Assembly (NCBI GenBank): GCA_947174735.1 | Contig: CAMWKC010000048.1 | Span: 1 to 11,389, forward strand | Source of the DNA: an uncultured Porphyromonadaceae bacterium | GTDB taxonomy: Bacteria > Bacteroidota > Bacteroidia > Bacteroidales > Muribaculaceae | Direction of reading: 5' to 3' | Length of the DNA: 11,389 bases | Part shown: in pieces, positions 2,360 through 11,346 of the stretch | Position numbering within the stretch: position 1 is the first letter of the stretch | Layout: every line of letters starts with the position of its first letter | Made by a program: the position numbers and the translations under genes | Notes under the pieces: generated by a model | Database searches by the model: none | What the model was told of the DNA's origin: nothing | What the model saw: only the letters and a program-made list of their open reading frames with translations

Positions 2360-2379
2360 TGTAAAAAATAATCTAAAGA

Positions 2380-2475
2380 TCTGTGTTAGCTCTGTGTTTC
2401 AGTTCTTATGGCAATTCTGTGTTCCCATGCAGCGACGTTCCCGGTGAACAAGCAATCTTTCCCACATGGTTCTCT
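2380..2475 (+). repeat. Degenerate solo copy of the GxxExxY-flanking repeat
   Basis: It shares TCTGTGTTTCAGTTC (2391-2405) and a downstream ACGTTCCCGG block with the two repeats that flank the GxxExxY gene (5881-5974 and 6485-6580). The middle part has diverged and the end (TTTCCCACATGGTTC) is only similar. It is not associated with a GxxExxY gene. Confidence 0.55.
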
Positions 2476-2604: not shown

Positions 2605-3237
2605 ATGAAATTAAAAGACGTTGGAAATATTCCATTCAGACTATCGGTGTTGCAATCAGTATTCCCCGACAATACTGCCATAACTGCTAAAGCTAAGCGT
2701 CTGGAGGATGCCGGTGACATCGTACGTCTTAAGCCGGGTTTATATGTGACAAGTCCGACAATAAGCGAAAAGAGGGTGAATGAGTTTCTTATTGCCAATC
2801 ATCTTCATGGTCCCTCGTATGTATCCATGCAAACAGCCTTACGATATTACGGACTAATACCTGAGCACGTCGTTGAGATAATATCACTAACACCGCGACG
2901 AGCAAAGACGTTTTCCAATAAAGTTGGTCGTTTCAGATATGTGCATTGTCCGGATTCATATTTTCCGATAGGTATTACTTCAATAATTGACGAAAGCGTC
3001 TCCTTACTCATAGCCACTCCTGAAAAAGCACTGTGTGATTTGATGTTATATACAGCTAATCTCAACCTACGTTATATTTCGGAAATTAGAACCTATATTA
3101 AGGAAGATCTAAGAATGGAGCAAGAGGATATAATCGGACTTAATACTGAAATCCTTAGAGAATGTGCCTGTGTCGGCAAAAAGAAAACCATGATAAACCA
3201 ATTGATAAAATTTATAGAATATGAGCGGAATGTTTGA
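2605..3237 (+). CDS. abiEi: AbiEi-family antitoxin of a type IV toxin-antitoxin system
   Basis: AbiEi neutralises the AbiEii toxin without direct complex formation and represses the shared promoter through its N-terminal winged helix. Here residues 1-48 look like that wing-helix region, ending in LKPGLYV (42-48). The conserved core follows: YVSMQTALRYYGLIPE (72-87), GRFRYVHC (107-114) and IATPEKALCDL (135-145). At 210 aa it matches short AbiEi proteins. The 3' end overlaps abiEii by 17 bp, so the two are translationally linked. A large palindrome and a -7 element lie just upstream, consistent with autoregulation. Family assignment rests on motifs and on the neighbour; antiphage activity is known for the family and inferred here. 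Confidence 0.85.
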   Translation: MKLKDVGNIPFRLSVLQSVFPDNTAITAKAKRLEDAGDIVRLKPGLYVTSPTISEKRVNEFLIANHLHGPSYVSMQTALRYYGLIPEHVVEIISLTPRRAKTFSNKVGRFRYVHCPDSYFPIGITSIIDESVSLLIATPEKALCDLMLYTANLNLRYISEIRTYIKEDLRMEQEDIIGLNTEILRECACVGKKKTMINQLIKFIEYERNV

Positions 3238-4045
3238 TCAGATGCTATCTCGCTATGACATTTCTACATCGTCGGCATTGAGAAATGCTACATTAGAGGT
3301 AATGCAACAAGTGACGCTGGCGGGACTGCATAGAGGAGGTTTTTTCGAAAAAGCTGCTTTCTATGGAGGTACCTGCCTGCGTATATTCTATGGTCTCGGT
3401 AGATTTAGTGAGGATCTTGACTTCTCATTGCTCAAATCCGACGACAGTTTTAACATCGAAGATTATTTTCCTGCTATAGTGGAGGAATTCAAAACTCTCG
3501 GTAGAGAAGTTATGATAACGAAGAAAGACAAAAGAAACTTTGGTAAAGTTGAGTCTGCATTCCTGAAAGATAATACTCATGTATATAATCTGTCATTCCA
3601 GACTGAGAAGAGTTACAAGATAAAAATAGAGGTTGATACACAGCCTCCCCTCGGTTTCTCAACTGAACAGAAGCTTCTTTTACAGCCATTTTCATTTATG
3701 ACCAGATGTATAACCCTGCCCGGCCTTTTTGCTGGCAAAATGCACGCATTGATCTTTAGAGGCTGGGGAAATCGTGTTAAAGGTCGCGATTGGTATGACT
3801 TCGAGTGGTATATACGCAATGATATGAAGCTTGACTTTAATCATTTCAAAGAAAGAGCAAAAGAATTCAATAATCTTGATCTTACACCGGACACATTTCA
3901 AGAAAAATTGATAAACCGTCTATCTTCAACTGATATTGAATTGGTTAAAAAAGATGTCCTTCCATTTGTCAAGAACCCTCAAGAACTTGAAATATGGAGT
4001 ACGGAATACTTTATTGCTCTTGCCAGAATGATAAAATTTCAATAA
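3221..4045 (+). CDS. abiEii: AbiEii-family nucleotidyltransferase toxin
   Basis: AbiEii/AbiGii toxins belong to the DNA polymerase beta-like nucleotidyltransferases; studied members modify tRNA or otherwise arrest growth, which can abort phage infection. The active-site pattern is visible: GGT at 49-51, then D65-L-D67 in the SEDLDFS segment, a third acidic site around E137/D139 (IEVDTQPP), and the C-terminal pattern K173 with KGRDWYD at 187-193. All key positions look intact, so the toxin is probably functional. The length (274 aa) is normal. The chosen ATG (3221) lies inside the end of abiEi; further ATGs at codons 4 and 8 are possible starts. No other gene shares the operon. Confidence 0.88.
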   Translation: MSGMFDQMLSRYDISTSSALRNATLEVMQQVTLAGLHRGGFFEKAAFYGGTCLRIFYGLGRFSEDLDFSLLKSDDSFNIEDYFPAIVEEFKTLGREVMITKKDKRNFGKVESAFLKDNTHVYNLSFQTEKSYKIKIEVDTQPPLGFSTEQKLLLQPFSFMTRCITLPGLFAGKMHALIFRGWGNRVKGRDWYDFEWYIRNDMKLDFNHFKERAKEFNNLDLTPDTFQEKLINRLSSTDIELVKKDVLPFVKNPQELEIWSTEYFIALARMIKFQ

Positions 4046-5721: not shown

Positions 5722-5880
5722 GCTGATTTATATTAAGTATTTGTTATTGAGGAGAAGAATAACGAAAGTTATCTTGACCCAGGCATTATAGCTATGACTA
5801 CCTGATTTCGGTTGACTGTTTTAAGTTCTAAGCACTGATGAAAGCTGACAGTATATGCCTTGCGAAAGTTGACTTTTTAG
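5722..5880. other. Intergenic stretch without recognisable content
   Basis: No gene, promoter consensus or strong hairpin is visible here. Short recurring GAAAG(T/C)TGAC-like words occur (near 5840-5875), but they are too few and irregular to call a repeat. Confidence 0.5.
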
Positions 5881-5974
5881 TTCTGTGTAGTTCTGTGTTT
5901 CAGTTCCCGTTTTGTTCCCGTGTTCCTCAGGTGAGGTGTTCCCGACGACCGAAGCGAGTATCCCCATGTTGTTC
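5881..5974 (+). repeat. Left inverted repeat of the GxxExxY element
   Basis: It begins with TTCTGTGTAGTTCTGTG, continues with CAGTTCCCG and a CCTCAGGTGAGG micro-hairpin (about 5926-5937), and ends with CCCATGTTGTTC. The order of blocks is the same as in the reverse complement of 6485-6580. Confidence 0.75.
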
Positions 5975-6011
5975 GTCTTAAATAACAGAACTTAAAATTT
6001 CAAATAAAGTA

Positions 6012-6042
6012 TTGTTAGAGTTGAAGAGAATACGTAGCTTTG
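6012..6042 (+). promoter_or_regulatory. Promoter of the GxxExxY gene
   Basis: TTG (6012-6014) and TAGCTTTG (6035-6042), separated by 20 bp, fit the Bacteroidetes consensus. Transcription would start about 18 nt before the ATG, giving a very short leader. Confidence 0.6.
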
Positions 6043-6067
6043 TAGTGTAGTTTAAATTTACAGTGTT

Positions 6068-6472
6068 ATGGAAAATCTTAGTTATGAACTTATCGGGGCT
6101 GCTTTTGAAGTTCGTAATTGTTTGGGAGGGTATCTGCACGAGACCGCTTATGAAGCGGCATTGCATTATGAGTTGTTCCTACGCGGTATCACCAGTGAAC
6201 GTCAGGTGAGTCTGCCCGTAATATATAAAGGTCTTTCAATCCATAATCCGTACCGTATTGATATAGTTGTCGAAGGAAAAATAATAGTAGAGCTTAAATC
6301 ATTACCTGCCATGAGTATTCGCGAAGTGGGACAGCTATTAAACTATATGCAACTCTCACATATCAGATTGGGTTATCTTATTAATTTTGGAGCCACTGAC
6401 TTTTGTACTGCTTCCACACCTTCAGACCGTAAAGAAATTCTGCCTAAAGGAATATATAGATATTATCTTTGA
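6068..6472 (+). CDS. GxxExxY protein (PD-(D/E)XK nuclease-like)
   Basis: Members of this family are small, widespread in Bacteroidetes, and structurally assigned to the PD-(D/E)XK nuclease superfamily; their function is unproven. This 134-aa protein has the usual order: an N-terminal helix (YELIGAAFEV, 6-15), the name-giving region GGYLHETAY (20-28), RQVSLPVIYKG (45-55), YRIDIVVEG (62-70) with D65, IIVELKS (72-78) with E75 and K77, and QLLNYM (89-94). D65/E75/K77 form the expected catalytic set. The first glycine of GxxExxY is a tyrosine here (Y22), while E25 and Y28 are kept. It is monocistronic and enclosed by long inverted repeats. Confidence 0.85.
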   Translation: MENLSYELIGAAFEVRNCLGGYLHETAYEAALHYELFLRGITSERQVSLPVIYKGLSIHNPYRIDIVVEGKIIVELKSLPAMSIREVGQLLNYMQLSHIRLGYLINFGATDFCTASTPSDRKEILPKGIYRYYL

Positions 6473-6484
6473 TCTCCATAAATT

Positions 6485-6580
6485 GAACAACACGGGAATA
6501 GCTCGCTTTGCTCGCCGGGAACGTCGTACCTGAGGGACACAAGAACAACACGGGAACTGAAACACAGAACTACACAGACA
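6485..6580 (-). repeat. Right inverted repeat of the GxxExxY element
   Basis: Read on the minus strand it starts with TGTCTGTGTAGTTCTGTG, keeps the core TCTGTGTTTCAGTTC (6554-6568 on the plus strand), and ends with TTCCCGTGTTGTTC. It contains GTTCCCGTGTTGTTC and ATTCCCGTGTTGTTC near its two ends, so it has short internal direct repeats. It begins 12 bp after the GxxExxY stop codon. Confidence 0.75.
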
Positions 6581-6714: not shown

Positions 6715-6718
6715 AGGG

Positions 6719-6805
6719 CGGAGAGGACGGGATTCGAACCCGTGGTAGGATTGCTCCTACGTCAGTTTAGCAAACTGGTGGTTTCAGCCACTCACCCACC
6801 TCTCC
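6719..6805 (-). tRNA. tRNA-Ser (anticodon GCU)
   Basis: The minus strand folds into a class II tRNA of 87 nt: acceptor GGAGAGG/CCTCTCC with discriminator G, an anticodon stem-loop CAGTTTGCTAAACTG giving anticodon GCU (reads AGC/AGU), a long variable arm GTAGGA...TCCTAC, and the T arm CGGGTTCGAATCCCG. The 3' CCA is not encoded (CCC follows). It has its own promoter and terminator and stands at the border between the accessory genes on the left and pyrH/frr on the right. Confidence 0.96.
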
Positions 6806-6875
6806 AAGAGTTATATCAAGATACCCTAAGGCATCCTGCGACGTTATGGACTCTTCCCTTGCGTCTTTGCGAGTG

Positions 6876-7824: not shown

Positions 7825-8382
7825 ATGGAAGTAAAAGAATATCTCCAGAATGCCGAAGATTCGATGCAGATGGCAGTGGAATACCTCGACGACACCCTGT
7901 CGCACATACGCGCCGGCAAAGCCTCCGCACGTCTGCTCGACGGCATACGTGTAAACTATTACGGCTCACAGGCTCCTATCAGCAACGTGGCTAATGTCAG
8001 TGTACCTGATGCACGTACTATAGCTATAACTCCGTGGGAAAAATCGATGTTTAAGGAAATTGAGAAAGCTATCATCAACTCCGATCTTGGTGTGACACCC
8101 GAGAACAACGGTGAAGTGATACGCCTTAATATTCCGCCGCTCACCGAAGAGCGTCGTAAACAGCTCGTAAAGCAGTCAAAGGCCGAAGCTGAACAGGCAA
8201 AAGTATCGGTACGCAATGCCCGCCGCGAGGCTATTGACGGTCTTAAAAAAGAGGTCAAGAACGGTCTGAGCGAGGATGTGGAAAAAGACGCCGAAGCCAA
8301 AGTTCAGAAACTGCATGATAAATACATGAAGAATATCGACGAGGTATTCGCTCTCAAAGAGAAAGAAATACTGACTGTATAA
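7825..8382 (+). CDS. frr: Ribosome recycling factor
   Basis: RRF, with EF-G, splits the post-termination ribosome so that subunits can be reused. The 185-aa length is exactly typical. The order of conserved regions is clear: a helical start, [23 protein letters not shown] segment (25-43), [14 protein letters not shown], a hinge with [14 protein letters not shown], and the long charged C-terminal helix ending near the stop. It follows pyrH in the usual bacterial order, and a large hairpin closes the operon 7 bp after the stop codon. Confidence 0.97.
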
Positions 8383-8389
8383 ATCGAAT

Positions 8390-8452
8390 CATACTGTCAT
8401 AGACAGGAGGGAGCATATCTTAGATATGCTCCCTCCTGTCTATGACAGTATG
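8390..8452. terminator. Perfect 63-bp palindrome closing the pyrH-frr operon
   Basis: Arms of 31 bp (8390-8420 and 8422-8452) pair without mismatch around a single central base; in RNA the tip must open to a small loop. The stem includes a GC-rich part (GGAGGGAGC). There is no T-run. Position between frr and the next gene suits a terminator, though the following glycosyltransferase starts only 25 bp later and has no clear promoter of its own. Confidence 0.65.
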
Positions 8453-8477
8453 CAACACTTTATCTGAATTATAAACC

Positions 8478-10979: not shown

Positions 10980-11042
10980 TTCTTTTTAGGTTTTATAAAT
11001 TTTAAAATTAATAAGATTATTAACAACAAAAACAATAAATAC

Positions 11043-11105
11043 TGTCAATAACTTGTTGATAACTTTTGTCTCAAAAATTTGGTAATTTGGAATATTTTAC
11101 AGGTA
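11043..11105 (+). repeat. Direct repeat module, copy 1
   Basis: It consists of TGTCAATAA (11043), TGTTGATAA (11054), a 14-bp spacer and a 29-bp segment (11077-11105) ending AATATTTTACAGGTA. Every component recurs 241 bp further right with identical spacing. Confidence 0.7.
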
Positions 11106-11189
11106 GAAGCTGAAAATTGTCCTATTTTTGGATTTAAGTTAGTAGTTATTAGCAATATAATTATAATAGAGAAATAATTCTCGATACTG

Positions 11190-11197
11190 CAAAGTTA
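11190..11197 (-). promoter_or_regulatory. Possible -7 element for nadA
   Basis: On the minus strand TAACTTTG is a perfect match, but the -33 position (within the motif array) has no TTTG. The leader would be about 200 nt. No better element lies nearer to nadA. If used, the array at 11209-11303 would cover the upstream part of this promoter. Confidence 0.35.
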
Positions 11198-11208
11198 CTA
11201 AAAATCCT

Positions 11209-11303
11209 GTCAACAACCTGTAGATAACTGTCAATAACCTGTCAATAACTTGTAGATAAGTTGTCAATAACCTGTCAATAACTTGTAGATAAGTTGTCAA
11301 TAA
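11209..11303 (+). repeat. Helically phased tandem 9-bp motif array
   Basis: Motifs start at 11209 (TGTCAACAA), 11219, 11229, 11240, 11251, 11262, 11273, 11284 and 11295, thus 10-11 bp apart. TGTAGATAA (11219, 11251, 11284) alternates with pairs of TGTCAATAA, giving a 32-33 bp higher-order unit. All lie on the same strand and the same face of the helix, which suits cooperative protein binding. Confidence 0.8.
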
Positions 11304-11346
11304 GTTTTACCTAAAATATTTGGCAATATAAAATATTTTACAGGTA
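11284..11346 (+). repeat. Direct repeat module, copy 2
   Basis: It overlaps the last two motifs of the array and repeats the layout of 11043-11105: two 9-bp motifs, a 14-bp spacer, and a 29-bp segment (11318-11346) matching 11077-11105 at 25 of 29 positions, with AATATTTTACAGGTA identical. Confidence 0.7.

Follow-up and report, generated by a model that had tools for sequence, protein, structure and literature searches.

A predicted nuclease gene of the GxxExxY family between its own inverted heptamer arrays suggests that a class of genetic elements that spread repeats has been overlooked

Homing endonuclease genes sit in an allele of their own cut site. They resemble the GxxExxY genes considered here in being stand-alone nuclease genes that may be present in one relative and absent from another, but GxxExxY genes lie between repeats of their own, gene-free copies of which are dispersed. 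A closer parallel is offered by the REP/RAYT systems, in which a short repeat likewise stands in inverted orientation on either side of one enzyme gene, copies without the gene occur both singly and as inverted pairs, and enzyme and repeat coevolve. The available portion of one report describes the presence of the repeats as following that of the enzyme, with REPs usually exceeding 100 per genome, and proposes that the repeats are copied by the system's own enzyme (PMC2817692), much as we propose below for GxxExxY; the available portion of another describes the REP as a palindrome with a GTAG/CGTC tag (PMC3733652). The intervening sequences of 23S rRNA genes that carry an S23/four-helix-bundle ORF (PF05635) are also similar in having a small ORF between inverted repeats. 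As far as the accessible text of the relevant paper goes, these sequences lie inside 23S rRNA genes, are removed by RNase III and encode a PF05635-type protein between inverted repeats (PMC4990558). Their protein is unrelated to GxxExxY, however, and the locus studied here has no link to rRNA.

The locus lies in a stretch of 11,389 nucleotides (hereafter the window, meaning the whole stretch analyzed) on contig C48 of the draft genome of an uncultured Porphyromonadaceae bacterium, which comprises 388 contigs and is 72% complete. A preliminary description of this DNA had claimed that inverted repeats of about 95 bp enclose exactly one GxxExxY gene, and this is borne out. The left arm (5882–5974, + strand) is 85% identical to the reverse complement of the right, inverted arm (6485–6578, − strand) over 94 gapped columns, or 86% over 77 nt without gaps, and the one ORF of note between them is the GxxExxY gene of family PF13366 / TIGR04256 (6068–6472, + strand; 134 residues). 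When the 300 bp upstream and the 300 bp downstream of this gene were compared by BLAST, the inverted match scored 104 bits, against a median of 16.6 for 390 control ORFs, and the 94-bp arms are longer than those listed at most other loci. The left arm contains heptamers of the CACAGAA and CACAGA type on the − strand. By eye, an outer motif, CCTTGCGAAAGTTGACTTTTTAG (5858–5880, + strand), adjoins the left arm and recurs almost identically in the spacer of a repeat pair on contig C39 of the same genome. A possible promoter, TTG-N20-TAGCTTTG, can be read at 6012–6042 (+ strand), and its form fits the Bacteroidetes promoter consensus. No rRNA gene was found in the window at the gathering score, the sole match being a tRNA-Ser(GCT) gene at 6716–6806 (− strand). 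The third, diverged copy that had been noted elsewhere in the window is also real; it lies at 2374–2451 (+ strand, 75% identity), 5′ of an AbiE-like pair and without a GxxExxY gene. A perfect 30-bp inverted repeat with a 3-bp loop (2497–2559) separates this copy from the AbiEi/AbiEii-like pair (2605–4045), and the same order, with a like repeat copy upstream of a similar AbiE pair, is seen on another contig (L338) of genome G499, the nearest relative found.

The enclosed protein matches PF13366 with an E value of 1.3e-33 (116.3 bits; curated cut-off 22) and TIGR04256 with 5.2e-33 (113.9 bits; cut-off 35). PF13366 is its sole Pfam match, and the gene encodes neither a Y1 (HUH) transposase nor a four-helix-bundle protein. 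On this basis it belongs to the GxxExxY / PDDEXK_3 family and is a predicted PD-(D/E)XK nuclease. The PD-(D/E)XK residues D and E-x-K and the motif E-x-x-Y are all present, and the G of the family name is, by reading, substituted. Six positions (E25, Y28, D65, E75, K77, and Q89) are invariant in an alignment of 50 sequences, and D65 and Q89 recur in at least 90% of a second alignment of 58 other sequences. The fold model of the window protein has a pLDDT of 92.7, and no convincing solved structure related by sequence was found for GxxExxY. The closest fold match of the model is SSO0001, which we take to be Cas4, that is, a CRISPR adaptation enzyme. A Cas4 profile match is absent or weak in the four GxxExxY members submitted to PADLOC: the window member has no match, and the best match of the four is to Cas4 with E 0.01. 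The protein further differs from Cas4 and RecB-type nucleases in its length of 134 residues, and no Cas gene was found among the scanned window proteins. We know of no role that has been assigned to GxxExxY.

Inverted flanking repeats are far commoner at GxxExxY genes than at neighboring genes, and they are widespread, though not found at every locus. We compared the 300-bp flanks of GxxExxY genes with each other by BLAST, using as controls the other ORFs of at least 90 residues in the same stretches. PF13366 is present in 34 of 149 genomes of the host's family, probably the Muribaculaceae, where 41 of the 54 matches listed were sampled (contig-edge matches, partial matches and a few full ones being left out) and 38 remained after removal of two without an ORF and one with a short flank. 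Repeats of at least 30 bits in either orientation flank 32 of these 38 genes, compared with 15 of 390 controls; for inverted flanks alone, p = 3e-16, and strong direct repeats are also common (15/38 at 50 bits). Across many phyla, with the best 80 of 576 confirmed stretches in a named collection as the sample and six of them dropped, inverted flanks at 25 bits were found for 49 of 74 GxxExxY genes and 19 of 626 controls (p = 7e-23). Two Bacteroidota samples, which have ten proteins in common, behave in the same way at 25 bits. The first, the 30 best loci among the matches listed less two that were dropped, gave 13/28 against 2/37 in controls; the second, comprising 61 loci (those from genomes with several copies, among the matches listed, together with L305) less one, gave 34/60 against 8/90. 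The suggestion that GxxExxY families elsewhere might be flanked by such repeats is therefore supported by the same plan in the host's family, across phyla and in both Bacteroidota samples. When the 29 control ORFs whose inverted flanks reach at least 30 bits were all scanned with Pfam, they proved to comprise six PF13366 genes (the sought gene itself at L086, a known paralogue at L350, and four newly found), one PF05635 gene, and 22 other genes, 19 of them matching other families (L245 and L367 being the same gene) and three without a match. Because the high-scoring controls include PF13366 genes as well as GxxExxY neighbors with a common repeat, which account for some of the 22, the control rates are somewhat too high.

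Judged from their sequences, the repeats consist of degenerate heptamers in arrays whose outer ends match. Many arms across phyla carry TTTAACCGCAAAGACGCAAAGACGCAAAG-like sequence towards the gene and its reverse complement on the far side, and a self-match at 8 bp is enriched in the cross-phylum flanks (p = 2.6e-19), with a weaker self-match at lag 9 in the host's family. In the paralogue set, the heptamer core reads CRCNRAG or CRCNRAT, separated by spacers of mostly 1–4 bp; these tend to be alike on the two sides of any one gene but vary from locus to locus. The right arm of the window fits this plan, reading CACGGGA-7-CACAGAA-3-CACAGA on the + strand by comparison with the paralogue set. 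Canonical arrays of at least two units are readable at only 60 of 146 loci; at these 60, 105 of 138 arrays are oriented towards the gene. Of 32 loci readable in this respect, 27 have the same outer 5-mer on the two sides, compared with a mean of 5.2 and a maximum of 14 in 5000 shuffles. Unit lengths of 9–11 bp, and then of 9 bp, had been entertained and were abandoned in view of the cross-phylum lag of 8 and the heptamers with spacers. A Bacteroides finegoldii record, where the locus lies between radA and an FAD-protein gene, provides a named example of a GxxExxY locus.

The type of repeat goes with the protein and not with the host, and the matching of the GxxExxY enzyme with its repeat is well supported. 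The outer motif requires 20 changes when mapped on a tree of 60 proteins, whereas shuffled motifs require 38.8 on average and none of 200 shuffles was as low. An ACCGC clade (9/9) and a GCCAC clade (12/15) each include Flavobacteriaceae and Cyclobacteriaceae, and a CTCRC/CACGC clade (7/8) spans Lentisphaerota, Verrucomicrobiota, Planctomycetota, Pseudomonadota, SAR324, and Nostoc. Because 19 changes suffice for host phylum on this tree (counted without shuffles), the tree alone cannot part host from protein. The distinction comes from paralogues within genomes. At 43 of 123 loci, the genome contains a paralogue less similar to the protein than is the best foreign protein, and at 37 of these 43 the repeat of the nearest foreign protein is more similar than those of the in-genome paralogues (Wilcoxon p = 2.5e-8; mean cosine 0.42 against 0.15); with seven reciprocal pairs counted once, the figure is 30/36 (sign test p = 3.5e-5). 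A Mantel test over 87 loci gives r = 0.25 and p = 0.002, also after allowing for the composition of the farther flanks, and within the host's own family alone the protein–repeat similarity is not significant (r 0.07, p 0.17), which qualifies the likeness to REP/RAYT coevolution. At one intergenic place occupied in two genera (L085 and L087, with neighbors in common), the GxxExxY genes stand in opposite orientation with different repeats, and this may reflect either two insertions or an inversion.

Gene-free copies of the repeat are found both in the window's own genome and elsewhere. A count of copies with and without the gene in the 72% complete genome gave a single PF13366 match and 12 further repeat places, namely the third copy in the window and 11 on seven other contigs, including close inverted pairs on C39, C134, and C19. 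Several contigs end near a repeat, and the copies may thus be undercounted. The copies on C28 and C134 (L011 2127–3038 and L010 2700–3308) adjoin a PDDEXK_2 (Rpn-type) nuclease gene or apparent pieces of one, and a different dispersed repeat of ~150 bp (L009 4682–4830), several copies of which at 86–94% occur in G499, adjoins the C39 pair. The canonical array pattern CRCDRAGRCRCDRAGRCRCDRAG has no match in this genome, whose own units are of another type, but it occurs at 440 places in 65 of 296 Bacteroidota genomes. Array-bearing genomes have 1–34 canonical arrays, compared with the more than 100 that the available portion of PMC2817692 gives as usual for REPs. A reversed-pattern control gave 19 matches in four genomes, 14 of them in G376, and the 15 array matches of that genome are therefore doubtful. 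Among 30 solo places, one per genome and taken from the matches listed, two have a GxxExxY gene within 300 bp, eight have an inverted partner at 10–58 bp where about three would be expected, five have a direct neighbor, and 15 stand alone with no partner within 150 bp; nine overlap an ORF of at least 100 residues and 21 lie outside such ORFs. Two gene-free pairs were folded, one from a solo place and the C39 pair, and both form strong predicted hairpins, that of C39 with a long stem of 107 pairs.

At the level of whole genomes, the presence of arrays tracks that of the enzyme, as it does in REP/RAYT. PF13366 is found in 151 of the 296 Bacteroidota genomes, about half, and in 62 of 65 array-bearing genomes against 89 of 231 array-free ones (p = 3.4e-18). 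The corresponding counts are 62/65 against 170/231 for PF05635 (p = 6e-5) and 59/65 against 151/231 for Y1_Tnp (p = 2.5e-5); all three comparisons ignore shared ancestry of the hosts.

Relatives differ in the presence of genes and repeats. In G499, pyrH and its neighbors match the window at 87% up to the tRNA-Ser gene, synteny stopping at the tRNA 3′ end with other genes beyond. The tRNA gene thus marks a sharp synteny break, perhaps the edge of an island, and the genes beyond it in G499 (L304) are DUF262-like by reading. G499, which is 86% complete, has 13 repeat matches and no DNA match to the GxxExxY gene, so that either the repeats can persist without the gene or the gene was missed there. 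The other 40 genomes of the first draw, 24 of them of the same genus, contain no DNA match to the window gene or repeat. The search for empty sites showed that G499 lacks the C39 repeat pair, which lies within ~421 bp of extra DNA; at the corresponding place in G499, flanks of 93% and 94% identity lie 9 bp apart. Another dispersed repeat begins right at the right junction of this site, and gain and loss are for that reason indistinguishable. A comparison within another genus, at ~70–78% identity, places a short gene-free interval of G093 opposite a GxxExxY gene and its repeats in G168. No target duplication was read at the C39/G499 site (93–94%) or at the ~70–78% sites, the junctions at C39/G499 and at L084/L090 being placed only approximately. 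An apparent inversion or re-insertion at L061/L063 was ruled out, since the two represent one inherited site. Among 72,556 plasmid records, one protein query returned eight in the search for near-identical pairs, none of them useful, and the window DNA had no match.

We consider it probable, if by no means assured, that the locus is a two-part element consisting of a GxxExxY nuclease gene and its own inverted heptamer arrays, with the gene-free arrays as non-autonomous derivatives. The best reading of these data is an enzyme-plus-cognate-repeat element that would work as REP/RAYT does, its enzyme being a PD-(D/E)XK nuclease and its repeats unrelated. The window locus would then be the gene-carrying form, its arrays serving as the nuclease's own recognition sites, and the gene-free arrays, whether single or paired as hairpins, would be its non-autonomous derivatives. 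In the mechanism we propose, the nuclease would bind the heptamers of its own ends and cut at the arrays or next to them, the arrays probably being folded as hairpins or cruciforms. As the cut DNA is then repaired or replicated, arrays might be copied to new places, mostly on their own and now and then together with the gene. This mobile-element reading rests on the matched gene and arrays and on the gene-free pair that is present in one genome and absent from the other, with cutting and copying as its presumed steps. The pairing of a nuclease-fold protein with its own repeat, which the preliminary description had likened to REP/RAYT, is supported by the matching across paralogues, genomes, and phyla, and we infer from it that the enzyme spreads the repeats and that the element is mobile.

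The principal alternative is that gene and arrays are a matched pair but not a mobile one. The protein would then be a regulator or an enzyme of the host, binding to the arrays or cutting there, and the arrays would owe their spread to something else. Such a pair might serve to control its own gene, in chromosome upkeep, or in defence, with a nuclease for which the arrays mark self DNA. The pairing evidence fits any protein and its site, 15 of the 30 solo places hold a lone array, and the best fold match is to SSO0001, presumably Cas4. However, arrays that flank the gene on both sides, in inverted orientation and across phyla, fit this alternative poorly, as do the PADLOC results described above, and one protein clade with its outer end recurs in Cyanobacteriota, Verrucomicrobiota, Lentisphaerota, Planctomycetota, and Pseudomonadota, which looks like transfer of a unit. 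We regard this alternative as unlikely, though worth keeping in view. Far less likely is that the gene is a hitch-hiker, brought by unrelated machinery into repeat-rich intergenic places so that gene and repeats are linked only by location. This would suit a site that abuts a tRNA gene and a synteny break, and also the 22 of 29 high-scoring control ORFs that are other genes, some of them beside a GxxExxY gene. It is contradicted by repeats that match the protein and not the genome (37/43), by the outer-motif tree, by the matching of both array ends, and by the gene-less site in the same genus (~70–78% identity), which shows no element.

Slightly less probable still is that we are dealing with REPs that depend on a Y1 transposase of the RAYT/IS200 type or on the PDDEXK_2 (Rpn) nuclease genes of the genome. 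The genome does have four Y1_Tnp matches, one repeat copy lies beside a PDDEXK_2 gene (C28) and another beside apparent pieces of such genes (C134), but the best of the four Y1 loci (C58) has no window repeat in the 2 kb covered, and the link of arrays with Y1_Tnp across the 296 genomes (p 2.5e-5) is weaker than that with PF13366. That the repeats are ordinary terminators or chance inverted repeats is hardly credible and is refuted as a general account, as control ORFs rarely show such flanks and terminators would not follow the enclosed protein, although most solo places (21/30) are not in ORFs of 100 residues and the two folded pairs are strong hairpins. The preliminary description had held that repeats scattered over the genome without enrichment near GxxExxY genes, at a locus fixed in all relatives, would speak against it; at most half of this was observed, in that the repeats do occur elsewhere in the genome, but their enrichment near GxxExxY genes is strong and the locus is not fixed.

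The GxxExxY element is not a member of the REP/RAYT systems, because both its enzyme and its repeat are unrelated to theirs: the enzyme is of the PD-(D/E)XK type (PF13366) and not a Y1 transposase, and the repeat is an array of degenerate heptamers. We know of no system that pairs this enzyme class with such arrays. The open-access literature searched yielded no description of the pairing, only passing mentions of the term GxxExxY in two papers, and no occurrence of six GxxExxY-type repeat strings. To the best of our knowledge, the pairing would thus be new, with a way of life that resembles that of REP/RAYT, and our analysis suggests that a class of elements spreading such repeats has been overlooked. 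If this is true, the GxxExxY family gains a substrate and a job, the recurrent TCTGTG/CTTTGCG-type repeats of many bacterial genomes are explained, and REP/RAYT has a second, independently built counterpart, through which the persistence of an enzyme with a short repeat can be studied outside the tyrosine transposases.

A second branch may exist. Among 30 loci of stand-alone PF05635 genes of Bacteroidota, chosen for their scores from the matches listed, 11 have flanks that match in inverted orientation at 25 bits, compared with 1 of 45 controls. Four PF05635 matches occur in the window's own genome, three of them over the cut-off and one of these partial, and repeats of tandem units are seen nearby by eye. 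We tentatively raise the idea, with more doubt than confidence, that repeat-spreading elements form a widespread class with at least two unrelated partners, GxxExxY and PF05635, each with inverted arrays of its own, and that the 23S rRNA intervening sequences are the PF05635 branch landed in rRNA genes; the link between PF05635 and these intervening sequences is a lead only. Inverted or tandem-unit repeats, with units of 7–8 bp by eye, were also seen at PF05635 genes (L180–L213).

Three further features of the window were observed away from the GxxExxY locus. At 953–1966, an UpxY-like antiterminator scores 70 bits (curated cut-off 100) and may open a capsule locus. Two 42-nt arms (8379–8463), 88% complementary and 1 bp apart, lie in the gap that separates frr from a glycosyltransferase gene and likely form a terminator. 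Upstream of nadA (11032–11316) are about ten copies of an 11-bp unit, TGTCAATAACT / TGTAGATAAGT, which is DnaA-box-like by eye, and a 63-bp block has a second copy 241 bp off.
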